Assembly: GCA_001603075.1 (NCBI GenBank)
Contig: LVBB01000041.1
Location: 1-64,000 of the forward strand
Source of the DNA: Phycisphaerales bacterium Planc_01
GTDB taxonomy: Bacteria; Planctomycetota; Phycisphaerae; Sedimentisphaerales; Anaerobacaceae
DNA length: 64,000 nt
Direction of reading: 5' to 3'
Shown: piece after piece, positions 48,890 to 62,153 of the stretch
How the letters are laid out: the number at the start of each line of letters is the position of its first letter
Numbering within the stretch: the first letter of the stretch is position 1
Position numbers and translations under genes: made by a program
The notes under the pieces: model-generated
What the model was told of the DNA's origin: nothing
The model's database searches: none
Seen by the model: only the letters and a program-made list of their open reading frames with translations

Positions 48890-49347
48890 CACGTCTCCCG
48901 GCTGCCCTGCCCGTGGGGAACAGAAGGTCCTGTCGAGCAACGACGGCGATTTTTCGGACCTGCCACCGCCACAGCGGCTCTGATCGGGGGTGGCAACCTC
49001 TGAGACCGCCGAGTCCCCAGTTCCATGCGGCGGCACCCGATTTTCCCACAATGCCCCTGGAGCCAGATAGACATCCTGACGATGTAAACATAGGACAACA
49101 AGGAAAAGAGGGTTGTGCCTTGTAGCCTCATATGGTACTTATGGATAGGATCGGACGGACATGTTTCGGGCCCAGCAATAGTGCTGTGGCTTGTGAGCCT
49201 GCCGTGACGAGCGTGTAGTTGGACGGTTTAGCGTGTGAGGAACGAACCTGAATTGGCCCGCTGTGACGAGGATGTGCGACACTTCGGCGTGTGCCCGGAG
49301 CAGGAGTTCCTTGTTGGTTTTTCTGGCTGGAAGAAGGAGGCAACACA
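48890..49347. other. 458-base gene-free spacer between giant secreted proteins 1 and 2
   Basis: No gene, terminator or clear promoter was recognised. It ends in AAGGAGG, the ribosome-binding site of the next gene. It lies between two same-strand paralogues and is far longer than a normal operon gap. Confidence 0.5.
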
Positions 49348-52140
49348 ATGAGAAAGCTGGTATTGGCATGCATCATCGCGATGCTCTTCGGCACGACGGC
49401 TTCGGCTGTCGACATCGCGATCTTCACACAAGCAGGCTGGTGGGCCCAGGGGGCGGCCGACCAGGAAATGCAGGACATCGTCGACAATGTGACCGGGGCC
49501 TCTGTCCAGGTGTTCACGTCCGGCGACCAGGCGGCCCTGGCCGACTGGGTCGTGGCCCACACAGGCAATGGGGTGCCGGACCTTCTGATTATGTGCGGGA
49601 ACTTCCCGGATAGCATCTATCCGGCGGGAAATGCGCAGCCGGATGGGTCCTTGGCCGAGTTGTTCCTGGATGGCGGCAACACCATCATCAACACCGGCGA
49701 CTACATCTTCTACGTGGGAACGGCCGGCAACAATGACGCCGGTGGATTGCAGAATATGATGGACGTTCCCGCCGCCGCGATGTGGGGGGATGATAGCCTC
49801 GCCACCATCTTCGTTCCTACCGCTGACGGCCAGTTGTATACTCCGTCTCTGCCGGAAACGCCCTCCAATCGCCCCTGGATTCCTGCCCAATTCGATGGTA
49901 CGAATTGGTACTTCGAACTGATTCTTGCTCAGAATAGTGATGGCACCCAGGTCCATCCTGGGATTCTGCGCAATTCTGTTACGGGCGGTCGCCTGGGCGT
50001 CTTCTTCCAGGTGGCCGATCAGTTCACGGATATCCGTGGCGAAGTGATCAGCGAATGGATCAACAACTGGTATCTTCCCACCGCTGCGGCCCCCAAAACC
50101 AGTTCGGCCCCAGTACCTGCCGTGGGAGCGGTGGATGTCCCCCGCGATGTCGTATTAAGCTGGAAGGCCGCTCCGAACGCCGCCACGCACGACGTGTATT
50201 TCGGCACGTCGCTCGACGACGTCAACGCCGCCAGCCGGAGCAATCCCATGGGGCTGCTGCTCAGTCAAGGTCAGGCGGGCACGACCTTCGATCCGCCCGG
50301 CATCCTCGATTTCAGCACGACCTACTACTGGCGCGTCGATGAAGTCAATGGGGCCCCCGATTTCACCATCTTCAAGGGCGGCGTCTGGAGCTTCACCGCC
50401 GAGCCGTTTGCCTACCCGGTGGCCAACATCGTCGCCACAAGCAACGTCATCTTTGACGAGGGAGCCGGGCCTCAGAATACGGTCAACGGCTCCGGCCTGA
50501 ACGCCAACAACCAGCACTCGACCACCAGCACCGATATGTGGCTGGCCAAGCCGGTTGGCGGCGAATCGGTCTGGATCCAGTACGAGTTCGATGGCATCTA
50601 CAAGCTCCACCAGATGCTCGTCTGGAACTACAACGTCCAGTTCGAGGTGATCCTCGGCTTCGGGCTCAAGGACGTCACCGTCGAATACTCTGAAAACGGG
50701 ACCGACTGGACCGTGCTGGGCGATGTGGAGTTGGCTCAGGCCACAGCCAGAGAGACGTACGCCGCGAACACGACGATCGACTTTGAGGGCATAGCCGCCA
50801 GATTCGTCCGCCTGAGCGTCAACAGCAACTGGGGCGGGATGGCTCAGTACGGCCTCAGCGAGGTCCGCTTCATGTACATTCCCGTGCAGACCCGTGAGCC
50901 GCAGCCGGCCGATGGCGCGACCGATGTCAGCGTCGAAAGCGCACTGGCCTGGAGGGCCGGGCGTGACGCGGTCTCGCACGAAGTGTATCTCGGCACCGAT
51001 CCCGAAGCGCTCACGCCGGCCGCGACCGTAGCCGGCAATAGCTATGCCCCCGGCGCGCTGAACCTTGCCACAACGTACTACTGGCAGGTCAATGCCGTCC
51101 AGGAAACCGAATCATGGGAAGGCGCCGTCTGGAGCTTCGCGACGCAGGAGTATCTGGTCGTCGAAGACTTCGAGAGCTATACCGACGACATCGATGCGGG
51201 TGAGGCCATCTTCGACACATGGATCGACGGCTGGGTCAACAACACCGGCTCGACGGTCGGCCATCTGCAGACCCCGTTTGCCGAGAGGACGATTGTTCGC
51301 AGCGGCCGCCAGTCGATGCCGTTGTTCTACGACAACACCGGCGTGGCCACCTCGGAAGCCGATTACACATTGACGGCCAACTGGTCGCAGCATGGCATCC
51401 GGAGCCTGTCGCTGTACTTCTACGGCGCCGAAGGCAACACGGGCCAGTTGTACGTCAAGATCAACGGGACCAGGATCGCCTACGACGGTCCCGCCGTCAA
51501 CCTCGCCCGTCCGGCCTGGCAACTGTGGAGCATCGACCTGTCGAAGGCCGGCAACGTCAGCAGCGTCCGCTCGTTGACGATCGGCGTCGAGGGCGCCGGG
51601 GCCAAGGGCGTCGTGTACATCGACGACATCCGTCTGTATCCTGAGGTGCTCGACTACAGCTCGCCGGACATCACCGGCGCCGGCGATACCGTGCAGGGCG
51701 TTCCAAACGACGCGGACTGGCCGGCGGCCGAGACGCCCGCGATGGCCATCGACGACAACGTCAACACCAAGTTCCTGCACTTCAAGGGCGAGACCGAGCC
51801 GACCGGCATTCGGGTGACCCCTCTGGCGGGTGCGACGGTGGTGACGGGCCTGACGCTGACGACGGCCAATGATGCGCCCGAGCGCGACCCGGTGAAGTTT
51901 GAGCTGTATGGTTCGAACGGCACGATCGACGGGCCGTATACGCTGATTGCCAGCGGCGACGTAGTGGACTTCGCCGGCGCGACCGCCTGGCCTCGCTTCA
52001 CCAAGAACGCCACGCCGATCGAGTTCGCCAACACCGTGGCATACAGGCACTATCAAGTCCTGTTCCCGGCCGTGCGCACTCCCGCGTCGGCCAACAGCAT
52101 GCAGATCGCCGAAATCGAACTGCTCGGCGCTGCCCAGTAA
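49348..52140 (+). CDS. giant secreted multidomain protein 2 (GATase/ThuA-like fold, Fn3-like, discoidin)
   Basis: 930 residues from an ATG with AAGGAGG upstream. Order: signal peptide (LVLACIIAMLFGTTASA); an N-terminal alpha/beta domain (about 21-243, VDIAIFTQAGWWAQGAADQE, PDLLIMCGNFPDSIY, GNTIINTGDYIFYVG) resembling ThuA/class-I glutamine-amidotransferase-like folds; Fn3-like 1 (about 244-350); discoidin (351-506); Fn3-like 2 (507-596); a galactose-binding-like domain (VVEDFESYTDDIDAGEAIF to VVYIDDIRLYPE); and an extra C-terminal discoidin-like domain (about 770-930). Protein 1 has a carbohydrate-binding domain in place of the N-terminal alpha/beta domain. Protein 2 lacks the DUF1349-like insertion of proteins 1 and 3. 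The active nucleophile of the alpha/beta domain was not identified. Confidence 0.84.
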   Translation: MRKLVLACIIAMLFGTTASAVDIAIFTQAGWWAQGAADQEMQDIVDNVTGASVQVFTSGDQAALADWVVAHTGNGVPDLLIMCGNFPDSIYPAGNAQPDGSLAELFLDGGNTIINTGDYIFYVGTAGNNDAGGLQNMMDVPAAAMWGDDSLATIFVPTADGQLYTPSLPETPSNRPWIPAQFDGTNWYFELILAQNSDGTQVHPGILRNSVTGGRLGVFFQVADQFTDIRGEVISEWINNWYLPTAAAPKTSSAPVPAVGAVDVPRDVVLSWKAAPNAATHDVYFGTSLDDVNAASRSNPMGLLLSQGQAGTTFDPPGILDFSTTYYWRVDEVNGAPDFTIFKGGVWSFTAEPFAYPVANIVATSNVIFDEGAGPQNTVNGSGLNANNQHSTTSTDMWLAKPVGGESVWIQYEFDGIYKLHQMLVWNYNVQFEVILGFGLKDVTVEYSENGTDWTVLGDVELAQATARETYAANTTIDFEGIAARFVRLSVNSNWGGMAQYGLSEVRFMYIPVQTREPQPADGATDVSVESALAWRAGRDAVSHEVYLGTDPEALTPAATVAGNSYAPGALNLATTYYWQVNAVQETESWEGAVWSFATQEYLVVEDFESYTDDIDAGEAIFDTWIDGWVNNTGSTVGHLQTPFAERTIVRSGRQSMPLFYDNTGVATSEADYTLTANWSQHGIRSLSLYFYGAEGNTGQLYVKINGTRIAYDGPAVNLARPAWQLWSIDLSKAGNVSSVRSLTIGVEGAGAKGVVYIDDIRLYPEVLDYSSPDITGAGDTVQGVPNDADWPAAETPAMAIDDNVNTKFLHFKGETEPTGIRVTPLAGATVVTGLTLTTANDAPERDPVKFELYGSNGTIDGPYTLIASGDVVDFAGATAWPRFTKNATPIEFANTVAYRHYQVLFPAVRTPASANSMQIAEIELLGAAQ

Positions 52141-52849
52141 CATCCGGTCGGGTGACTGCCTCAGTCACATCATCACGGCCAAGGGTATGTCAAGGGGCCT
52201 GCACCATTGCGGTGCGGGCCCCTTTCGTTTGGCATGCCTTGTGTTGCGGACGGACCGCTCACCCGCTTGGAGGACCACGATGCGACCCGCATGAGCCGCC
52301 AGGCGTTTCCAGCCGATCCGGCAGGCCCCCGGACCGGCTTGCGACAGGCGATGGACGACACGCCCGCCCCCCTGAAGACAGATGTCGTTTGTGCCGATAG
52401 AAGCGCCATGCCTACACGGGATTGTTGTTGCTCTCCTGCCACAGATTTGATATGAATGATGAGGCCTTGAATGGCGGTTTTCGGACCCGTTGTAGCCGAG
52501 GCAGCTCCGGTCAGGACGGCCGCGTCCATGGGCCGGATAGGAAGCTGGTGTCTTCATCGGTCGCAACGATGCCCCGAGTCCCACAACACGCGGACCGGGC
52601 CAGGGACGGAAAGCACCATGCCGGCGACCTTGGGTTGTGTTCGGTCGATTTTGCGGGCAGCGGCGAAGAGGGAAGGAAGGAGGTGAGACCCATTCTGACA
52701 GCAATTCACGTCTGAAGAAAGGATCCGGAAGTACTCCCTCACGGGGAGCGTCTGCCGACCGAGGCAATGGCGTTGCGGGCCGCGGCCGGAGGTAAAGGCT
52801 TTGGCATGGGAAGGTCGATCGTTTCTTTGGCTTGTGGAAGGAGACAATT
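52141..52849. other. 709-base gene-free spacer with terminator, between giant secreted proteins 2 and 3
   Basis: Apart from the terminator at 52191-52230 and a small hairpin GTGACTG-CC-TCAGTCAC (52152-52168), no gene or RNA was recognised. GAAGGAGA at its end is the ribosome-binding site of the third paralogue. Confidence 0.55.
52191..52230 (+). terminator. intrinsic terminator after giant secreted protein 2
   Basis: GGGGCC-TGCACC pairs with GGTGC-GGGCCCC around a short loop, in the context AAGGGG...CCCCTT, followed by TCGTTT. The stem is about 14 pairs, making protein 2 its own transcript. Confidence 0.85.
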
Positions 52850-55741
52850 ATGTGCAAGATACTGAGTCGTTTCACTGTCGTGATGTTGCTGCTGGCGGTC
52901 GCTGTGGGCCAGTCCCACGGCAGTCCGTACATTCGCGCCGCGTATTGGGACAGCAGTCAGGGCACGGCCTGGGCGGGAGACGGCGGCCCCGTGCGCGATG
53001 CCTTGGCGGCCGTCGGTTATCAAGTCGTCAACGCGGCCGAATTGAAGACCTGGATGGATGACCGCATCGCCGACCGGCGACTCAGCGTGGTCGTGATGTG
53101 TCGAGACGTCGTCCCGGACACCGTGGTCGAGTCGGTCAACGCGAACTGCACCATCCGACGGTATCTCGACGCCGGCGGCAAGGTCGTCTGGTATTCCGAC
53201 TGGCCATTCTATTACGTGGGGACAACCAGCAACTCCCCGGGAAGCAACGGCGCCGTCCAGGTGCTGGGTTTCAACGCCTCCACCGGCCCCAACGATCAGA
53301 ACCAGCAAGTGACGTTCACCGAGGCCGGGATTCGATGGGGACTGGTCACGCCATGGTCCTCGACGCGGCCGACATCGCCGACGGTGACGGACAATCTGAC
53401 CGTCCTGGCAACGGACAACAACGGCAACGCCGCCGGCTGGGTCAAGCACTACCTGCCGGGCGACACGTTCCGCGGATTTGTCCGCATCGAAGACCACAGT
53501 GGCGCGCCCGCCAATATCCAGAACCTCATCGCGGTAGCGGAGTACGCCGAATCCATCAACACCGCGTCCGGGCCACAGCCGGAAGGCGAAGCCGCCGATG
53601 TTCCTCGCGACGTCGTGCTGAGCTGGGCAGCAGGAGAGTCCGCCGTCACGCATGACGTCTATTTCGGCACGTCGTTCGACGACGTCAATGCCGCCAGCCG
53701 CAGCAATCCGAGGGGCGTGCTGCTCAGCCAGAGCCAGACGGGCACGACCTTCGACCCGCCCGGCATCCTCGATTTCGGCCAGACCTACTACTGGCGTATC
53801 GACGAGGTCAATGGGGCACCCGACTTCACGATCTTCAAGGGCGACGTATGGAGCTTCACCGCCGAGCCGTTTGCCTATCCGCTGGCCAACATCATCGCCA
53901 CCAGCAACGTCGCGTACGACGAGGGGGCCGGCCCGGAGAACACGGTCAACGGCTCCGGCCTGAACGCCGCCGATCAACACTCGATCGCCAGCAACACAAT
54001 GTGGCTGGCTCGGCCGGTGGACGGTGAGTCGGTGTGGATCCAGTACGAGTTTGATCGCGTCTACAAGCTCCACCAGATGCTCGTCTGGAACTACAACGTT
54101 CAGTTCGAACTGATCCTCGGTTTCGGGCTCAAGGACGTCACCGTCGAATACTCTGAGGACGGGACGGACTGGACTGTCTTCGACGATGTCCAATTGGCAC
54201 GGGCTACTGCCAGAGAAACCTATGCCGCCAACACGACAATCGACTTCGAGGGCTTGGCCGCCCGGTTCGTTCGGCTCCACGTCCACAGCAACTGGGGCAC
54301 CATGAGCCAGTACGGGCTCAGCGAGGTCCGCTTCCTGTTCATCCCGGCACACGCCCGCGAGCCGCAGCCGGCCGACGGCGCCACGGCTGTGGACGTCGGC
54401 AGCGCCCTGAGCTGGCGTGCCGGTCGCGATGCGGCCTCGCATGAAGTGTATCTGGCCACGCACCCGGACAACCTGGCCCTGGCCGGTACGGTCGCAGGTG
54501 CCACGTTCGCACCGGGCAACATCGAGTTCGGCAGCACCTACTACTGGATGGTCGATGCGGTCAATCCGGATGACGCGAACCCCGTCTGGAGCAGCGCCCT
54601 GTGGAGCTTCTCGACGCAGGAGTATGCCTGGATCGAAGGGTTCGAGACGTATGACGACAACATCGACGCCGGCACGGCGATCTTCGATACATGGCTCGAC
54701 GGCTGGGTGAACAACACCGGCTCGACCGTCGGCTATCTCGAAACCCCGTTCGCCGAGCGGACCATTGTCCACGGGGGTCGGCAGTCCATGCCATTGCAGT
54801 ATGACAACAGGACCTCACCGTTCTACTCCGAGGCCGAGCGGACCTTCGCCAACGCGAACTGGTCGGGCAACGGCGCCGACACGCTGGTGCTGTACGTTCG
54901 TGGCAGCGCGCCATCGTTCAAGGAGACCTCCGACGGGGCCATCATCATGAGCGCGATCGGGACGGACATCTGGAACACGGCCGATCAGTTCCGCTATGCG
55001 TACAAGAGCCTCAACGGCAACGGATCGATCGTAGTCCGTGTGGACAGCCTGATTCGCAGCAACGAGTGGGCCAAAGCGGGCGTGATGATTCGCGAGACGC
55101 TGGAGGCCGGCTCGAAGCATGCGTTCGTGGCCCTGACGCCGGAACCGAGCCACGGGGCATCGTTCCAGCGTCGTCCGGTGGCCGGGACCGACAGCGCCAA
55201 TACAGACGTGGCGGATATCTCGCTGCCGTACTGGGCGAAGCTGACGCGGACGAACAACCTCTTCACGGCGCAGATCTCGGCCGACGGCGTCACGTGGGTG
55301 GATATCACACCGACGGCGCCGGTGGAGATTCCGATGGCGGCGAACGTCTACATCGGTCTGGCGGTGACCAGTCACGAGGCCGCGATAACGACGGCGGCGG
55401 AGTTCTCGAACGTGTCGATGACGGGCAGCGTGACGGGCGCCTGGCAAACGGCGGAAATCGGGGCGACCCAGCCGACGGGCAACGACTCGGCCGAGCCGAT
55501 GTACGTTCGGATCGAGGACAGCGCGGGCCAGAGCGTGACGGTGGTGAACGCCGATGAGGCGATCACGCTGCGTTCGTCGTGGCAGGAATGGAGAATCTCG
55601 TATGCCGATCTGGCCGGCGTCAATCTCAGCCGCGTCCAGAAGATGGTGATCGGGGTCGGCAGCAAGACCAGCCCGAAGGCTGGCGGCAGCGGCGTCGTCT
55701 ACATCGACGATATCGGCTTCGGCCGACCGGCGGCTCCATAG
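52850..55741 (+). CDS. giant secreted multidomain protein 3 (GATase/ThuA-like fold, Fn3-like, discoidin, DUF1349-like)
   Basis: 963 residues from an ATG with GAAGGAGA. Order: signal peptide (FTVVMLLLAVAVGQSHGS); an N-terminal alpha/beta domain (about 26-236, IRAAYWDSSQGTAWAGDGG, LSVVVMCRDVVPDTV, GGKVVWYSDWPFYYVG) analogous to that of protein 2; Fn3-like 1 (237-338); discoidin (339-499); Fn3-like 2 (500-590); then a galactose-binding-like region (IEGFETYDDNIDAG) split by a DUF1349-like insertion (about 692-857), ending VVYIDDIGFGR. The discoidin and Fn3 blocks are nearly identical to those of protein 2, showing recent duplication or gene conversion. Probably a cell-surface or secreted glycan-interacting protein. 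Confidence 0.84.
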   Translation: MCKILSRFTVVMLLLAVAVGQSHGSPYIRAAYWDSSQGTAWAGDGGPVRDALAAVGYQVVNAAELKTWMDDRIADRRLSVVVMCRDVVPDTVVESVNANCTIRRYLDAGGKVVWYSDWPFYYVGTTSNSPGSNGAVQVLGFNASTGPNDQNQQVTFTEAGIRWGLVTPWSSTRPTSPTVTDNLTVLATDNNGNAAGWVKHYLPGDTFRGFVRIEDHSGAPANIQNLIAVAEYAESINTASGPQPEGEAADVPRDVVLSWAAGESAVTHDVYFGTSFDDVNAASRSNPRGVLLSQSQTGTTFDPPGILDFGQTYYWRIDEVNGAPDFTIFKGDVWSFTAEPFAYPLANIIATSNVAYDEGAGPENTVNGSGLNAADQHSIASNTMWLARPVDGESVWIQYEFDRVYKLHQMLVWNYNVQFELILGFGLKDVTVEYSEDGTDWTVFDDVQLARATARETYAANTTIDFEGLAARFVRLHVHSNWGTMSQYGLSEVRFLFIPAHAREPQPADGATAVDVGSALSWRAGRDAASHEVYLATHPDNLALAGTVAGATFAPGNIEFGSTYYWMVDAVNPDDANPVWSSALWSFSTQEYAWIEGFETYDDNIDAGTAIFDTWLDGWVNNTGSTVGYLETPFAERTIVHGGRQSMPLQYDNRTSPFYSEAERTFANANWSGNGADTLVLYVRGSAPSFKETSDGAIIMSAIGTDIWNTADQFRYAYKSLNGNGSIVVRVDSLIRSNEWAKAGVMIRETLEAGSKHAFVALTPEPSHGASFQRRPVAGTDSANTDVADISLPYWAKLTRTNNLFTAQISADGVTWVDITPTAPVEIPMAANVYIGLAVTSHEAAITTAAEFSNVSMTGSVTGAWQTAEIGATQPTGNDSAEPMYVRIEDSAGQSVTVVNADEAITLRSSWQEWRISYADLAGVNLSRVQKMVIGVGSKTSPKAGGSGVVYIDDIGFGRPAAP

Positions 55742-55807
55742 AGCAGCCCGCCCGCGACGGGCATCGAGGCCAAGCCTGAGATGTCTGTCCGAACGAGTGA
55801 ATGCCTC

Positions 55808-55850
55808 GGGGCCTGTCCCGATCTCCCGCCGGGACAGGCCCCATCGGTTT
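55808..55850. terminator. strong bidirectional terminator
   Basis: GGGGCCTGTCCC pairs perfectly over 12 bases with GGGACAGGCCCC across an 11-base loop and is followed by ATCGGTTTGTGTTT. It lies between the convergent third paralogue and the sugar operon. Confidence 0.85.
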
Positions 55851-55950
55851 GTGTTTCGGGTTGACCGGAACCATCACCAACAGGATCACGCCAGGACCGG
55901 TGTCTCCGACACCCTTCGCCACAGAAACGATGGGAGGAGCTTGCACTCCC

Positions 55951-57867
55951 CTATTCGGGTGCGGCCGCAGACTGTCCGAAGAGAAGGTGGAGCAGGTCGT
56001 GCCATTGGGAAAAGTCGGGCACAACGACCTGCGCGCCGGCCTTGATCAGGCGGGTGCGTTTCTCCGGATTGAGACCATAGCGACGAACTTCGTCCGAGGC
56101 CACTCCGACGGCGATGCCCCCTCGCTTGCGGCACTCGCGCATCTCGACGGGGCCATCGCCGACAACGACCAGTTCGGCGCCGGACAGTTGGTTCTCGGTC
56201 ATGATCCGGTCGATGACCATGCGTTTCGAGTACTTGGTGACATCGCCGACGGCGCCGTAGATGCCGCCATCGAAGAACTCGGCATAGCCCAGTGCGTGGG
56301 CCTCCCGGACCACATCCTCCTTGTCAGTGCCGCTGGCCAGATAGAGTGTAACGCCTCGATTGCGCATCGCCGCGAGAAAACCGACGGCCCCCTTGACCGT
56401 GAAGTCGCTGACGTCGAGCTGCCCGCGTTCCAGCCGGGCGATGCGGCCGTTCACCACCTCCATCAGGGCCCGGTTGTAGATGTCCTTGTAGCCGAATTTG
56501 TCGAGCACCTTGTCGGCCGGAACGATGCCGAACTCCCTGACCATCTCCACGAGGGCCTCCATCTGGAGGATCGTCTGAATCCCGGTGGACTGGTCGATGT
56601 ATTCGAGCACGCGTTGACGCACCTTCTCGTAACGCGCCGTGTCCACGGTGCGGTACTGCTCGCCGAGAATCGCCTCGATCATCACCGGGGCCATCACTTG
56701 CTCCCAGCCTTGGCGAAGCGTGCTGACCGTGCCGTCGGCGTCGAAGACCGCGTGCTTGATCCGGCCGAACGGAATCGCCTCCTCGCACAGCTCGATGTCG
56801 CTTCCTTCGAGATAGCGGGCCTTTCGCGGGTCTTCAGCCAGCTCCGGCTGATAGATGTAGTCCGGCGATTGGCCCACCGCGAGGATCTCCTCGCCCGAAG
56901 CCGTGCCCGTCTGAAACAGTTTCTGAACCGTCACCGCGGCCGCCAGATTGGCGAACTCGGCCGCTTCCGCACAGGATACGCCCGCTCCGAGACACAACGC
57001 CAACGCGCTGGTCACGGTATCGCCGGCACCCACCGGATCGAGCTTCTTGAGCAGTTGAATCCCCGGGACCTCGTGCAGACCGTTACGATCGACGGTGAGG
57101 ATGCCTCGCGAACCGCGGGTCAGGAACACGGGCTTGCCGAACTGCTCGTATAGACGATGGACATAGGTCTTGACGTCTTCCAGCGGCAGATCGTCGTCCA
57201 GACTGACCTCGACACCATTGAGCGCGGCGGCCTCGCGATCGTTGGTCTTGCGATGGATGCCCTTGAACTGCCGCCCATAGTGACGCGAATCGAGCAGGAC
57301 GACTTTGTCCGGAAACTCGGCAAACAAGGCATTGGCCCGATCGATGAAGCTCTCGTTGGGAATGCTGCCGGGGACCTGCTGATTGACGATCAACGCATCG
57401 GCGGTCTGAAGGGCGTGACGGATGCCGGCCAGGAGGGCCTCATCGGTGGCCGCCGACCGCCGATTGAAGAAGCCGAAGTCCATCCGAGGCTGCTCGCGTC
57501 CTTCCACATACGGCTTGGCGAACGTCACCGTGTCGTAGTTCTCACTCTGGATCACCAGCGCTGTCGTATCGACGCCCAGCCCATCCAACTGCCGTCTCAG
57601 CTCGCGGCCGTACAGATCACCGCCGACGGCGCCGATGACCTGAATGGCCTTCGGCTCCAGCGCCGCCAGATTGGCCACGACGTTCGAGGCGCCGCCGAGC
57701 GAATAGTAATGCCGGGCCACCGCACGCGCCTGGAGCCCCGTCTCGACCGAAACCTCCGACCCTTTCGGATCGAGGATCCAGTAGGCGTCAAGGCAGAAAT
57801 CGCCGTAGACGGCGACAGTTACCTTCTTGATGTCATCGAGAATCTCGCGGATGCGCCGTTCGTCCAT
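55951..57867 (-). CDS. PfkB-family carbohydrate kinase fused to HAD-family phosphatase
   Basis: 638-residue fusion. The N-terminal half (about 1-330) is a PfkB/ribokinase-like sugar kinase related to the HldE/RfaE kinase domain: VAVYGDFCLDAYWIL, LGGASNVVANLAAL, and the catalytic anion-hole motif LDPVGAGDTVTSALAL. The C-terminal half (about 380-638) is a HAD phosphatase with the nucleophile motif VFDADGTVS, threonine/serine motif LYLASGTDKED, and acidic motif VVVGDGPVEMRECRKRGG. One chain would both phosphorylate and dephosphorylate sugars, as in ADP-heptose or similar activated-sugar pathways where a kinase and phosphatase act in turn; the nucleotidyl-transfer domain of HldE is missing. It starts 9 bases after the DHS-like gene. 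Confidence 0.87.
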   Translation of the reverse strand: MDERRIREILDDIKKVTVAVYGDFCLDAYWILDPKGSEVSVETGLQARAVARHYYSLGGASNVVANLAALEPKAIQVIGAVGGDLYGRELRRQLDGLGVDTTALVIQSENYDTVTFAKPYVEGREQPRMDFGFFNRRSAATDEALLAGIRHALQTADALIVNQQVPGSIPNESFIDRANALFAEFPDKVVLLDSRHYGRQFKGIHRKTNDREAAALNGVEVSLDDDLPLEDVKTYVHRLYEQFGKPVFLTRGSRGILTVDRNGLHEVPGIQLLKKLDPVGAGDTVTSALALCLGAGVSCAEAAEFANLAAAVTVQKLFQTGTASGEEILAVGQSPDYIYQPELAEDPRKARYLEGSDIELCEEAIPFGRIKHAVFDADGTVSTLRQGWEQVMAPVMIEAILGEQYRTVDTARYEKVRQRVLEYIDQSTGIQTILQMEALVEMVREFGIVPADKVLDKFGYKDIYNRALMEVVNGRIARLERGQLDVSDFTVKGAVGFLAAMRNRGVTLYLASGTDKEDVVREAHALGYAEFFDGGIYGAVGDVTKYSKRMVIDRIMTENQLSGAELVVVGDGPVEMRECRKRGGIAVGVASDEVRRYGLNPEKRTRLIKAGAQVVVPDFSQWHDLLHLLFGQSAAAPE

Positions 57868-57876
57868 TCTGTCCTC

Positions 57877-58908
57877 TCAGAGTCCCTGGAGAATCGCCCG
57901 ATACAACAGCGGAAACGTTGCCCGCTGGTCGCCCTGCACGTAGAAGCCCCGGCCGCCAAAGGCCTGTGGAATCCGTGTCACCACGCTCTTCTGGTCCCGG
58001 AAGTAGTAGCCCTGCGCCCTTTCGTCGGCCATCTGGTCCGGGTCGTGCCGGCGTAGATCGAAATCGGCCGTCAGAATGTCACGCGGGACAGCCCCGATAT
58101 TGGCGGCCATCGAAGCGGCTTTGAGCAGCACCTCCGGCCCGGTGACGGCGCTGCCGATGTTGAGCACGACGCCGCCTTCGGTCAGCTTTGTCACCTCGTG
58201 GGTATAGATCAGGAAATCGCGGCCGGAACAGCCGCCCTTGGCCTGGCCGTCGAAGCTCGGATGCTGGTCGATTACGTCGGTCCCGATCCCCACGTGCACC
58301 GTGAAGGGGACCTCGTGACGGTAGCACGCCGCCAGGACGCTCGTCTCGGGGTGGGCAAACGTTCGGGCCGAGCCCTCCGTCGCCGCCAGCGCGAGAACCT
58401 GCCTCCGGAACACCTCGTCGCAGATCATCCGGCCGAGCGTCTCGCCATAGCCCAGCTTCTGCTGGTTGCCCACGCTCAGCGCCAAGTTGATATAGGCGAA
58501 CTCGTAGGCCATGCCGAACTGCCCCTGCCCCAGAGCGGCCGGAACGTTCTCACTGGTCTGTCCGATCAGGGCCAGCTCGAAATCGTGGATCGTCGTGGCC
58601 GCATTGCCCGCCACGAGCGTGACGAAACGCCGCTCGACGAGGTCGGCCAGCAGCGGGCCCAGTCCGTTCTTGATCAGATGCGCGCCGGTGAAGAGGATGA
58701 CTGGCTTCTTCGCCCGGCGAGCCGCAACGATCGCCTCCGCCACCATCTGGATGTCACGCGCCGTCTGTTCGGGCACGTCGAGGTTCAGCGCATCGAGCCC
58801 GCCCGGAAAGACGAGGTCGCCGAGCGTGACCTTGTTGCTGCGGCCTTCGAGCGGATACGTCGCAATCCGGCTCGAATCGAACACCTTGTATCTGCCTTCG
58901 TACTCCAT
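57877..58908 (-). CDS. deoxyhypusine-synthase-like fold protein of unknown substrate
   Basis: 343 residues. The central segment KPVILFTGAHLIKNGLGPLL, AGNAATTIHDFELALIGQTS and NVPAALGQGQFGMAYE matches the NAD-binding core of deoxyhypusine-synthase-like proteins. NIGSAVTGPEVLLKAAS occurs later. Bacteria have no eIF5A, and no catalytic lysine in the DHS context was identified, so classical hypusination is not proposed. Bacterial members often make other spermidine-derived or unknown products. Here the gene sits 12 bases after an epimerase and 9 bases before a sugar kinase-phosphatase fusion, which argues for a sugar or polyamine conjugate pathway. Confidence 0.75.
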   Translation of the reverse strand: MEYEGRYKVFDSSRIATYPLEGRSNKVTLGDLVFPGGLDALNLDVPEQTARDIQMVAEAIVAARRAKKPVILFTGAHLIKNGLGPLLADLVERRFVTLVAGNAATTIHDFELALIGQTSENVPAALGQGQFGMAYEFAYINLALSVGNQQKLGYGETLGRMICDEVFRRQVLALAATEGSARTFAHPETSVLAACYRHEVPFTVHVGIGTDVIDQHPSFDGQAKGGCSGRDFLIYTHEVTKLTEGGVVLNIGSAVTGPEVLLKAASMAANIGAVPRDILTADFDLRRHDPDQMADERAQGYYFRDQKSVVTRIPQAFGGRGFYVQGDQRATFPLLYRAILQGL

Positions 58909-58920
58909 CGCGCCGTCCGA

Positions 58921-60198
58921 TCAGAGATTCGCCTGCAACTTCTCCAGGCGTTTGATGCACTCGATCATGCAGCGGATCGTGTGGTAGTTGACCTTCCACG
59001 AATGGCTCATGTGCGTCCAGATCGGCTGGCCCTCGCGTGTCGTCAGCGGCCACCACTCCCCGACCTCATGGTGAATCATCTTATCGAACACGAAGCGGTG
59101 GACGTTCAGGTAGCTCGGCCAGTAGTCCGCCGGGCCGAATCGCAGGCAGCCTTCGAGCATACCGATCATCACCTCGGCCTGCTGCCAGAACTCCTTCTCC
59201 ATGTCATAGACGCCGCCCGCATGAGGCCCTTCGGTATAGACGCCGCCGAACTCGGGATCGATGCCGTTGTCGCGGCCGTGGTCCATCGCCTTCCGGATGA
59301 TGCCCTTGCACTGGTCCCAATGGCCGCCCAGCACATCGGTCGCGTGGGCCAGCAGCCAGGCGAACTCGACGTTATGCCCGGCCGACGTGTTGTCCTCGGC
59401 GTTCGGCTTGGCGCCGCCCTCGGCGAACCGGTCCCAGCCCCAGACGATGTCGAACTTGATCTGCGGGGCCACCTTCCAGTCCACGGTGAACTGCGGAATC
59501 CCCGTGGCATACTTCGGGTGCAGGATCCGCGTGAACAGCAGGTCGATATCCTCCAGCAAAGTCCGGCGGTGGATGCTCTTGCCCGTGCACTCGTACAGGG
59601 TCGTGAACGCCTCCATCAGGTGCATGTGCACGTCGAGCGTCTTGCGGTCGCCGCCCTGCGGTCCGGGCCCGCACAGGTCCCAGTTGCGTTCGAACATCTC
59701 GAAGTAGCCGCCATACATCGTGTCGGCCGCGTATTTCTTGACCAGGTCGAACGTCTTCTCGGCGTATTCCTGACCGCGCGGGTCGCCGGTGGCCAGGGTG
59801 TATTCGGCCATCGCGTACATGCCGAAGCTCAGGCCGTACATGATCTTCTTGTCGATGGCCACCTCGCCCTTGCGGTTCGTCGTCCAGTAGAACCCGCCGT
59901 ACTGCTTGTCCCAGACCTTCTCGATCAGGAAATCCACGCCGTGTCGGGCGCATTCGGCGCAGCGGCCACCGCCAAAACCCGCCCGGTGCGCCGCCGACAT
60001 CGAGTAGACCGTCCGCAGTTGGGCCAGCGCCGATTTCTCATCCTCGCCCGTGTCCTTGCCGTCCTTGTCGAAATGCGTGATGAACCCGCCGTAGCGGTCG
60101 TCCTTGCACCGATTCAGCCAGAACGGCAGCAGTTCCGTCGTGAAATGCTTCTTACACTCGTCCAGACAGCCCGAGACTTGATCGCGGTCGATACGCAT
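58921..60198 (-). CDS. N-acylglucosamine 2-epimerase (AGE) superfamily sugar epimerase/isomerase
   Basis: 425-residue (alpha/alpha)6-barrel enzyme that isomerises or 2-epimerises sugars. Seen: FWLNRCKDDRYGGFITHFDKDG at the start, YGGFYWTTNRKGE, catalytic His motifs LDVHMHLMEAFTTLYE and SAGHNVEFAWLL, and the C-terminal WKVNYHTIRCM. Related enzymes act on N-acetylglucosamine, cellobiose, mannose or glucose; the substrate cannot be told. It is first in a three-gene operon with a clear promoter and, with the downstream kinase-phosphatase, may feed a sugar into an activated-sugar route. Confidence 0.88.
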   Translation of the reverse strand: MRIDRDQVSGCLDECKKHFTTELLPFWLNRCKDDRYGGFITHFDKDGKDTGEDEKSALAQLRTVYSMSAAHRAGFGGGRCAECARHGVDFLIEKVWDKQYGGFYWTTNRKGEVAIDKKIMYGLSFGMYAMAEYTLATGDPRGQEYAEKTFDLVKKYAADTMYGGYFEMFERNWDLCGPGPQGGDRKTLDVHMHLMEAFTTLYECTGKSIHRRTLLEDIDLLFTRILHPKYATGIPQFTVDWKVAPQIKFDIVWGWDRFAEGGAKPNAEDNTSAGHNVEFAWLLAHATDVLGGHWDQCKGIIRKAMDHGRDNGIDPEFGGVYTEGPHAGGVYDMEKEFWQQAEVMIGMLEGCLRFGPADYWPSYLNVHRFVFDKMIHHEVGEWWPLTTREGQPIWTHMSHSWKVNYHTIRCMIECIKRLEKLQANL

Positions 60199-60254
60199 TG
60201 CCGTACCCTTTCACCCAGTCGCCCATAGCATCCATACCCGCACGCAATCCAGGC

Positions 60255-60283
60255 ATTCTATGCCCCCCCGCCCCACCCGTCAA
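60255..60283 (-). promoter_or_regulatory. sigma-70 promoter of the epimerase operon
   Basis: Minus strand: TTGACG, 17 bases, TAGAAT; five of six at both boxes. Predicted start near 60248, about 50 bases before the epimerase ATG. Confidence 0.75.
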
Positions 60284-60361
60284 CAACACCTTCGACCACC
60301 GCTCGCGAAGGGGGCTGTGCGGCTTTGGGGCAAGGTCCGTCTCACGCGGCGAGCGCCGTGC

Positions 60362-60484
60362 GTGGCAGCCTCAAAGCGTAGTGCAACGGAGCTTTGGGGA
60401 TGGTTCTTCCCATGGGCAGCCTTCTGGTATCCACGGAGCGTCTATACCCACCATCCCCAAACGCGACGCGTTTGAGGCTGCCAC
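60362..60484. repeat. nested inverted-repeat element 1 (MITE/REP-like)
   Basis: Outer arms GTGGCAGCCTCAAA and its complement (60471-60484), and inner arms GGGGATGGT and ACCATCCCC, enclose about 45 bases. Each arm also folds on itself (AAAGC...GCTTT; AAACGC...GCGTTT), so the whole can form a cruciform. No ORF is inside. Such elements are typical of dispersed non-autonomous repeats. Confidence 0.75.
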
Positions 60485-60572
60485 ACGGTGGCCAGGATGT
60501 CTTCACACACACCCTGCGAAGGCAGGCGATTGGGGGTTGCAGGCGAGTTCTGGCAAAGCGCAGCACCCGACT

Positions 60573-60675
60573 TTGTCATTCCGACCGGAGCAAGGCGGAG
60601 CGGAGGAATCTGGCTGCGAATGAGGTGCATGCATGGTCTGGGGCCAGATGTTTCGGCTTCGCTCAACATGACAAG
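60573..60675. repeat. nested inverted-repeat element 2 (TTGTCAT...ATGACAA type)
   Basis: The left end TTGTCATTCCGACCGGAGC... and the right end ...GCTTCGCTCAACATGACAA are imperfect inverted copies, with the AATCTGGC / GGCCAGAT pairing continuing inwards. It belongs to the general 'TGTCATTCTGAGCGAAGC-like' palindromic repeats seen in many environmental bacteria (recognised from memory, not searched). It lies 90 bases after element 1. Confidence 0.75.
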
Positions 60676-60910
60676 CACGAGCCTGTCGCAGAACTCGCAA
60701 GCGAGCTTCCGTCCCCCAAACTGCTCTCCGCTCAACCCGCCCCGGTGTGCCTCCCCGTGTCGCGGGCATCCTGCCCGCGCGTGGCGAGGGCGTCCCGCCC
60801 TTGCGTCCCTTGCTCCCCCTCACCACCCCCGCAAACCCAACCACCTCCCAGCAATCCTCACGCCACCAAAAGCCATCACGAATTGCGTGAGCCGTCACCG
60901 GAATTATCCC

Positions 60911-62092
60911 TCATTCGGCAACAGACCCTATCACAGCGTTCGCCATGAGGAAGGCGCGAAGCTTGCGCCAATCATCCCGTTGGTCTTCCGGCTTTCGGCC
61001 AGACGGACCATTCCTTCCTTGCTGGCTGGTGTGGAAGAGTGGAAACAGCCATCGGTCCGCCCATTCGACCGGTCGCGCTACAGCTTCTTTCATTGTCCTG
61101 TAAGGGTGGCTCTCAACCTTGTGAAGAGCGATAAGAGCCCTGCGACCGACAGAGACAACTACCCGTGGATCAAGCAGCTCCACTTGGCGGTGAATGTTCT
61201 TTGAGCACATTCGCACCTGCGCGTTCGAGACCGGGTACGCTGTTCCGCCATCGCTCTGTTTCGCCGCCGGCAGGCAGAGAACAGCGTTTGTAACCTGAAA
61301 CTCATCGATCGATAGACCGAGAATCTCCGTAACCAGCTCATGGGTGAACTTCCCGGTTTGATCCGTTGCCGGATCATACGTGAGATACCCTTTCTTAGGA
61401 TCGGTGGTATCGGCGAGATTTGGTGCTTCGAATACGAAAAGGACCCCACCGAGTCGGGGCCTGAACCGGCCGAAGAGTGGTCTGGCGCTTGGATGAAGCA
61501 GAGCGCCCTTCCAGCAGTCCCTGCATTTTCCCAGTTCCGCGCACAGGTGTCTCCACGCCTCGTCTACACCATTCTGCAGATGACCTTTCTGCCCGGGTGG
61601 AGTTTGCTGTCCGCAGCACGGCGTACCTCCCATACCATCTCTGCGGCAGGGAGTCCTTTCCAAACTTGAATCGTGAACGATAATCCGTGGGTTTGCAGCA
61701 CGTCCGCGCGGCTGGCGGCGGACAGGCCCACACAACCTGTCTCTTATTCTCCGGTAGTTCTCGCCATATTCCGCCTTGGGGCCTTTCCAGAGAAGCTGTG
61801 CTTCCCTGTTACCACGCACGAGGAAAACTCGTGCCTCGTTCCTTGCGCTGCCTGCTATGATTTCCTCCGAAACGGTGTCTGGAATTGGCTTGGCATCCCG
61901 CCCATTCAGCAGGAAGCCTCTGATTATCAGCGTCTTGGCTCGCTTGTAGTAGCGTACAGCCGTGACATCCCTGAAGGAGTCGATCTTCGCATTGAACTCT
62001 CCTTCGGATACTATCTTAGGGAAGGAAGAAAGCTGATATGTCGCCCCAACCGATGCTTGCACGCCACCCGCATCACCCGCTACCATAGTCAT
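60911..62092 (-). CDS. uracil-DNA-glycosylase-like protein with long unrelated N-terminal extension
   Basis: 393 residues. The C-terminal about 200 residues resemble family-4/5-type uracil-DNA glycosylases: a Cys pair KCRDCWKGAL, GVLFVFEAPNLADTTDPKKG in place of GEAPG, FTHELVTEILGL, FQVTNAVLCLPA (TNxVxCxP), AQVRMCSKNIHRQVELLDP and VVSVGRRALIAL. The first about 190 residues (FRDVTAVRYYKRAKTLIIRG, ARVFLVRGNREAQLLW) match no family known to me and end in an Arg/Cys-rich linker. The start at 62092 has GGAGC before it; a GTG at 62122 is also in frame. The gene is visibly more AT-rich than its neighbours and flanked by repeats on both sides, consistent with transfer. UDG-like activity is unproven because the active-site Asp/Glu context is degenerate. 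Confidence 0.7.
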   Translation of the reverse strand: MTMVAGDAGGVQASVGATYQLSSFPKIVSEGEFNAKIDSFRDVTAVRYYKRAKTLIIRGFLLNGRDAKPIPDTVSEEIIAGSARNEARVFLVRGNREAQLLWKGPKAEYGENYRRIRDRLCGPVRRQPRGRAANPRIIVHDSSLERTPCRRDGMGGTPCCGQQTPPGQKGHLQNGVDEAWRHLCAELGKCRDCWKGALLHPSARPLFGRFRPRLGGVLFVFEAPNLADTTDPKKGYLTYDPATDQTGKFTHELVTEILGLSIDEFQVTNAVLCLPAAKQSDGGTAYPVSNAQVRMCSKNIHRQVELLDPRVVVSVGRRALIALHKVESHPYRTMKEAVARPVEWADRWLFPLFHTSQQGRNGPSGRKPEDQRDDWRKLRAFLMANAVIGSVAE

Positions 62093-62153
62093 ATTGCTCC
62101 GTTTCTCCGCCTCGGAGTTCACGTACTCCTCCGGGCCTCGGCATTATGGTTCT

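Follow-up and report, generated by a model that had tools for sequence, protein, structure and literature searches.

The window analysed here is a 64,000-nucleotide stretch of contig LVBB01000041.1 from Phycisphaerales bacterium Planc_01, a member of the Planctomycetota. Its minus strand carries an operon of three genes encoding an AGE-superfamily epimerase, a GSU2086-family protein that resembles deoxyhypusine synthase (DHS) and is here called DHSL, and a fusion of a PfkB kinase with a HAD domain. The reading that we tentatively favour places this operon at the heart of a heptose-style module for sugar phosphates, with DHSL as an epimerase that depends on nicotinamide adenine dinucleotide (NAD) and is built on the fold of DHS and AgrE. 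The epimerase gene comes first (60198-58921, 425 amino acids), followed by the DHSL gene (58908-57877, 343 amino acids) and the fusion gene (57867-55951, 638 amino acids). Open reading frame (ORF) coordinates leave 12 bases between the first two genes (58909-58920) and 9 between the last two (57868-57876), in agreement with the first-pass annotation, which had described a three-gene minus-strand set with these gaps from the letters alone.

The trio is a real conserved unit, and its link between DHSL and kinase extends over several phyla. Sixty loci with relatives of DHSL, a non-random sample, were found by way of the DHSL gene itself; their record titles include Planctomycetota, Bacteroidota, KSB1 and Chloroflexi. 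Linkage was scored in loci with at least 55 % identity to DHSL and at least 1200 nt of downstream sequence. A kinase gene lies downstream of DHSL on the same strand in 43 of the 48 testable loci, the exceptions being L054, L063, L065, L068 and L069. The DHS-like gene is thus not placed at random in related genomes, a possibility that the first-pass annotation had proposed to check. None of the six loci under 55 % identity passed the same kinase test. For AGE, 51 loci had upstream sequence long enough to judge, and in 26 of them the gene lies upstream of DHSL (25 from Planctomycetota, one from Marinilabiliales). A SIS gene sits between DHSL and the kinase in L058, L059, L062, L066 and L067, with the L058 copy reaching 193.5 bits against a gmhA cut-off of 209, and L093 encodes a fusion of a GSU2086-family protein with GmhA (SIS). 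ORFs in these and several other neighbourhoods of relatives were called by a simple longest-ORF script. As a separate observation, L092 (6845-8667), from a record titled Bacillota, holds two tandem divergent DHSL copies with HAD downstream.

A second sampling used the HAD domain, found in 26 of 294 genomes of the phylum at E 1e-30. From these genomes, 20 HAD neighbourhoods were hand-picked, some of them for a known nearby DHSL gene, and six contain DHSL (L152-L157), which is divergent in L154 and 3.5 kb from the HAD gene in L157. AGE occurs in L152 and L164, and SIS in L152, L159, L163, L167 and L170. In L152, from genome G079, the kinase-HAD fusion, DHSL, AGE and SIS genes form a single run. 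The SIS protein of this run matches gmhA models below their cut-offs, and the gene ahead of it resembles GntR/LacI regulators. Since AGE and SIS co-occur in this locus, the idea that AGE takes over from the GmhA-like isomerase is rejected. Two further neighbourhoods come from genomes of the same family as G079. In L158 (G271) an HldC-type nucleotidyltransferase gene comes after the kinase-HAD fusion, HldD is next, and the contig ends soon afterwards; in L159 (G232) the contig begins inside the HAD part, and the order is HAD, nucleotidyltransferase, HldD and SIS. The fusion in L158 and the HAD part in L159 therefore place this protein beside standard ADP-heptose genes, and HldD stands where L152 has DHSL.

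The fusion protein (55951-57867, minus strand) consists of an HldA-like PfkB kinase at about residues 11-324 and, at about residues 370-575, a phosphatase-type HAD domain that bears a helical cap. Pfam assigns 105 bits to PfkB (cut-off 25.8) and 46.5 bits to HAD hydrolase (cut-off 26.4). Against solved structures, phmmer places the heptose-7-phosphate kinase 4e84 first for the kinase with 51 bits, compared with 43 for ribokinase, and the best NCBIfam model is TIGR02198 (heptose-7-phosphate kinase domain, HldA/HldE domain I) at 127.7 bits, compared with 61 for ribokinase. The first-pass annotation had seen the logic of ADP-heptose synthesis in a kinase joined to a phosphatase, an idea upheld both by this best match and by the same fusion beside HldC-type and HldD genes in L158. 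The HAD domain keeps the DxD, S/T, K and GDGxxE motif set: across 36 rows, the catalytic columns D31, D33, K203, G225, D226 and E230 are invariant, and S167 and T169 are nearly so. Its structural model matches phosphatase (phosphoglycolate phosphatase) and beta-phosphoglucomutase structures at Z 16.5-19.5 and predicts a member of the HAD hydrolase superfamily with cap helices, presumably of the C1 type.

The AGE protein scores 144 bits on PF07221 (cut-off 23.4). Its closest structure by phmmer is 8h1k (E 1.3e-195, 654 bits, residues 7-422), and the next family, cellobiose 2-epimerase, reaches 145 bits; the AGE protein of L152 is likewise closest to 8h1k among solved structures (349 bits). The database lists 8h1k as an N-acylglucosamine 2-epimerase, and we take it to be the mannose 2-epimerase of Runella slithyformis. 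On that assumption the window AGE resembles the Runella enzyme, whereas the genes around it in the operon suggest a pathway for phosphosugars alongside the step on the free sugar. A paper on the Runella slithyformis mannose 2-epimerase appears by title in the reference list of PMC13363691.

DHSL matches the curated NCBIfam model NF052581, 'GSU2086 family', at 331 bits against a cut-off of 250. No function is assigned to this family, nor does the model name give one, yet it is common: 141 of the 294 sampled genomes of the phylum score above its cut-off. A Pfam scan of DHSL returned nothing above cut-off and no PF01916 match at E 0.001, a profile result that rules out a deoxyhypusine synthase proper, and PF21570 (ArgZ-like / ArgZ-AgrE C-terminal domain) reaches 23.5 bits, under its gathering cut-off of 27. 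The AlphaFold model of DHSL (mean pLDDT 95.5) matches three kinds of structure to a similar degree, namely AgrE (Z 20.5, 222 residues), ArgZ (Z 19.6) and DHS (Z 17.3-19.9, 241-268 residues), and these structural alignments show 11-19 % identity. Sequence comparison places ArgZ (E 9.4e-06) and AgrE (E 3.4e-05) closest among solved proteins, over about 70 residues. Thus the earlier description of a DHS-like protein holds for the fold and fails for family membership, where NF052581 takes the place of PF01916. DHSL shares its fold with DHS and the AgrE/ArgZ C-terminal domain, with weak sequence similarity to ArgZ, but it differs in its low identity, in both Pfam results and in a context of sugar phosphates instead of amines. 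DHS/AgrE folds bind NAD, and the known cases borrow and then return a hydride. The lysine of an RDQK motif, present in 45 of 46 HAD-linked proteins, falls in sequence order at the DHS catalytic lysine (which we take to be human K329) in an alignment made by eye and not from coordinates.

A whole-genome PF01916 search found one gene, on contig C16 (L001, 1414-2463, G000:C16), distinct from the DHSL gene of the window, and hhalign of the GSU2086-family profile against this DHS of the same genome gave only a partial, low-probability alignment. The C16 homologue reads GGGVPKNF at what is presumably the GGG..KHH motif of DHS, and another function is possible for it. Literature on GSU2086, consisting mostly of abstract openings, offered no functional assignment, and in such material nothing combined deoxyhypusine synthase with heptose.

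Genome patterns nevertheless yield a concrete and testable claim for this family, namely that GSU2086 enzymes may be DHS-fold substitutes for HldD, the ADP-L-glycero-D-manno-heptose 6-epimerase (TIGR02197). The same 294 genomes comprise 144 with strong GSU2086 (the 141 above cut-off plus G019, G084 and G163), 80 with HldD (E 1e-70) and 238 with HldE. Among the HldE-positive genomes, 7 have both GSU2086 and HldD, 126 GSU2086 only, 66 HldD only and 39 neither (Fisher p 4e-23). Shuffling labels within families gives a mean of 15.2 genomes with both, and 0 of 10,000 shuffles are as low as the observed 7. Of the 56 genomes without HldE, 11 have GSU2086 and 7 have HldD; a single genome is counted in both groups. 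Proximity points the same way. It was assessed for 146 of 150 GSU2086 places against the HldE places listed, to which four from another search were added; 96 of the 146 are in genomes with a listed HldE place, and 46 of these 96 lie within 1500 nt of a listed HldE on the same strand, with a median gap of 78 nt. HldD (E 1e-70) is found in none of the 46 genomes with GSU2086 near HldE, among the HldE places listed. The seven HldE-positive genomes with both include G004, G097 and G171, whose GSU2086 proteins fall in the larger clade, that of the window protein. HldD is an SDR-type (short-chain dehydrogenase/reductase) enzyme, so the predicted likeness in role and the mutual avoidance across genomes would amount to a non-homologous replacement by a protein with the DHS/AgrE fold. 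If true, this would fill the lipopolysaccharide (LPS) heptose gap in bacteria that have HldE and lack HldD, and it would show the DHS fold in carbohydrate chemistry.

The namesake of the family is consistent with this claim. In Geobacter sulfurreducens, GSU2086 is numbered between hldE and gmhA, and PMC5585712 gives similar transposon-sequencing values of -3.1 for GSU2085 (hldE), -3.2 for GSU2086 and -3.7 for GSU2087 (gmhA). The window DHSL belongs to the same curated family but sits in a clade apart from GSU2086, is longer by about 30 residues and has a conserved lysine. A tree of 112 proteins, midpoint-rooted for drawing only and with HldE neighbours labelled 'kinase_other' or 'none', resolves an LPS-type clade of 28 rows and a trio-/capsule-type clade of 77 rows, both supported, with 7 rows outside; the window protein falls in the 77-row clade. 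Twelve LPS-type rows that were inspected have T, M, V, Q, A or R at the position of the RDQK lysine. Given the lysine and the clade split, the idea of HldD replacement rests on the LPS clade and extends to the window protein only by homology and through L158 and L159.

Within the favoured module, homology and the operons of relatives suggest that the HldA-like kinase would phosphorylate C1 of a manno-configured sugar phosphate and that the fused HAD domain would take off the distal phosphate, as HldA and GmhB do on heptose 7-phosphate. With its bound NAD, the GSU2086-family protein would oxidise a single carbon of the same sugar, invert it and reduce it again in a redox-neutral step, a role akin to that of HldD in other genomes. 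The AGE enzyme would equilibrate C2 epimers of the free sugar, and the GmhA-like isomerase of related genomes would tie the sugar to sedoheptulose 7-phosphate. Heptose chemistry is likely for the module. A wider reading would make GSU2086 an unrecognised class of NAD-dependent sugar epimerases on the DHS/AgrE fold, with an LPS branch that replaces HldD and a window branch that serves a second, nucleotide-free heptose-style pathway (kinase-phosphatase fusion, AGE and a GmhA-like isomerase) in several phyla; it is somewhat doubtful as a whole. If it were true, the trio would represent a separate heptose-style pathway outside LPS synthesis.

The module resembles the ADP-heptose pathway (GmhA, HldA/HldE, GmhB, HldC, HldD) in its HldA-like kinase and HAD domain, in the GmhA-like SIS proteins of relatives, and in the L158 fusion and L159 HAD part beside HldC-type nucleotidyltransferase and HldD genes. 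It differs in that the window kinase and HAD domain are fused, in that the capped HAD domain matches no GmhB model, in the presence of AGE and a GSU2086 protein in the place of HldD, and in trio loci without a nucleotidyltransferase match. The genome of the window also has LPS-type heptose genes: on another contig, C24, HldE kinase and adenylyltransferase domains lie adjacent to a SIS_2 (GmhA-like) gene, in the company of GmhB-like and heptosyltransferase-like ORFs. The names LpxK, GmhB and heptosyltransferase, on C24 and in the neighbourhoods of relatives, are readings by eye. No HldD was found in this genome at E 1e-70.

Several related arrangements were also seen. In L113 (G275:C5, 3714-10187), a GSU2086-family gene is joined in one run by genes like those for transketolase, GmhA and HldE and by separate rfaE-domain-II genes; this may be a heptose cluster for a capsule or glycan. 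L104 (G000:C46, 4139-5386) encodes a 415-residue protein distantly like GSU2086/ArgZ (36 bits) within what by eye is a cluster for the synthesis of 3-deoxy-D-manno-octulosonic acid (KDO); its contig, 8.5 kb long, is a possible contaminant. Replacement of GmhB by GSU2086 is unlikely, since in L106 a GmhB-like ORF, again read by eye, follows the GSU2086 and HldE genes.

A number of results weigh against the favoured reading. The kinase score of 127.7 bits is far below the curated HldE cut-off of 345 for TIGR02198, a strict threshold passed by 75 of the 294 phylum genomes and 2 of 14 controls. A profile match to 4e84 of 204 bits is inflated by six HldE-type kinases in alignment A3, which are also contained in the derived KIN profile used in neighbourhood scans and tree annotation. 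The fusion matches 15 NCBIfam families at E 0.001, with no GmhB model among them, and 14 of the 20 HAD neighbourhoods lack DHSL within the stretch. The trio operon has no nucleotidyltransferase, although the substrate of HldD is an ADP-activated sugar; this absence, pointed out in the first-pass annotation, recurs in the trio loci L034-L087, where tblastn with rfaE domain II found no match. Genomes G079 (89 % complete) and G167 (99 % complete, one contig) contain the module without a TIGR02199 or rfaE-domain-II (HldC) match at E 0.001.

The genome-wide patterns have their own exceptions. Neither GSU2086 nor HldD is present in 39 of the 238 HldE-positive genomes. Four of the seven genomes with both hold LPS-type GSU2086 proteins (G018, G065, G164 and G191), and G018 has GSU2086 beside an HldE-like kinase as well as HldD, outside the HldE places listed. 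The avoidance of HldD comes mainly from the LPS-type clade, which mostly lacks the lysine kept by the clade of the window protein, and the function of the LPS-type clade may not transfer to that protein. The similar Geobacter scores could also arise from polarity within a single operon.

The surroundings of the trio bring other explanations into play. Among 75 neighbours in the same directons (loci from L054 on), the commonest families are SIS (7), the GH92 N-terminal domain (4), Gfo/Idh (4), GntR-like (4, partly the same proteins as DeoR), GH32 (3), ROK (3), DeoR (3), amidohydrolase (3) and URO-D (3), and the top 25 of the 120 families listed include no nucleotidyltransferase or glycosyltransferase. 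Contexts vary, and the neighbour families favour sugar use or remodelling over activated-sugar synthesis. On this basis the trio could belong to a catabolic route in which the kinase phosphorylates C1 of a free manno-configured sugar, either mannose or a heptose released from glycans. The HAD domain, working as a mutase like beta-phosphoglucomutase, would then shift the phosphate to the opposite end of the sugar, while DHSL and AGE would fix the stereochemistry for central metabolism and SIS would make a ketose phosphate. The GH92, GH32, ROK, DeoR and Gfo/Idh neighbours, an SSF transporter gene adjoining AGE-DHSL in L065, the beta-phosphoglucomutase structures among the best matches of the HAD model and the missing nucleotidyltransferase and HldC matches would all suit such a route. 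We nonetheless consider it rather unlikely: the HAD match list is also full of phosphatases and does not separate mutase from phosphatase, neighbour genes vary by lineage, and a Pfam scan of the ORFs flanking the trio in the window found no transporter or glycosidase family.

A side branch of LPS heptose synthesis, in which the trio makes heptose 1-phosphate, a separate HldE adenylyltransferase domain activates it and DHSL replaces the missing HldD, would account for the HldE domains, SIS_2 gene and by-eye GmhB-like and heptosyltransferase-like ORFs on C24 in a genome without an HldD match at E 1e-70. It appears improbable, since C24 already provides a kinase and phosphatase route, G167 and G079 have the module without a strong HldE match or any HldC match, and HldD also occurs in 4 of the 26 HAD-positive genomes (G004, G097, G232 and G271). 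Amine chemistry like that of DHS or ornithine cyclodeaminase, with DHSL adding or removing an amino group on a sugar to give a polyamine-linked or amino sugar, would draw on the DHS/AgrE fold (Z 17.3-20.5), on the RDQK lysine at what we take to be the DHS lysine site, and on two DegT aminotransferases among the 75 neighbours. It is very improbable, because DHSL is not DHS by profile, the main genes linked to it work on sugars or their phosphates, and LPS-type relatives lack the lysine yet stand beside HldE. The polyamine-linked sugar proposed in the first-pass annotation is thus unsupported, with DHSL outside the DHS Pfam family and SIS, GH92, Gfo/Idh, GntR-like, GH32, ROK and DeoR proteins as its commonest neighbours.

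Ahead of the trio, a promoter-like site, TTGACG-17-TAGAAT (60283-60255, minus strand), has 10 of 12 consensus matches and ends 56 bases before the AGE start. It is the only site found in 55600-61000, where shuffled sequences give 1.2, so the single strong promoter claimed earlier is within chance. A gap of 712 bases (60199-60910) separates the trio from the upstream ORF on the same strand as would be expected if the trio were transcribed as a unit of its own. That ORF (60911-62122) belongs to the UDG superfamily (PF03167) and has a long N-terminal extension. Elsewhere in the window, adjacent plus-strand genes at 49291-52140 and 52832-55741 encode large proteins with long stretches that look similar by eye, the second with an F5/8 type C domain. 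Among the loci collected, L078 (541-3156) carries a DnaB helicase gene with an intein that contains a LAGLIDADG domain.

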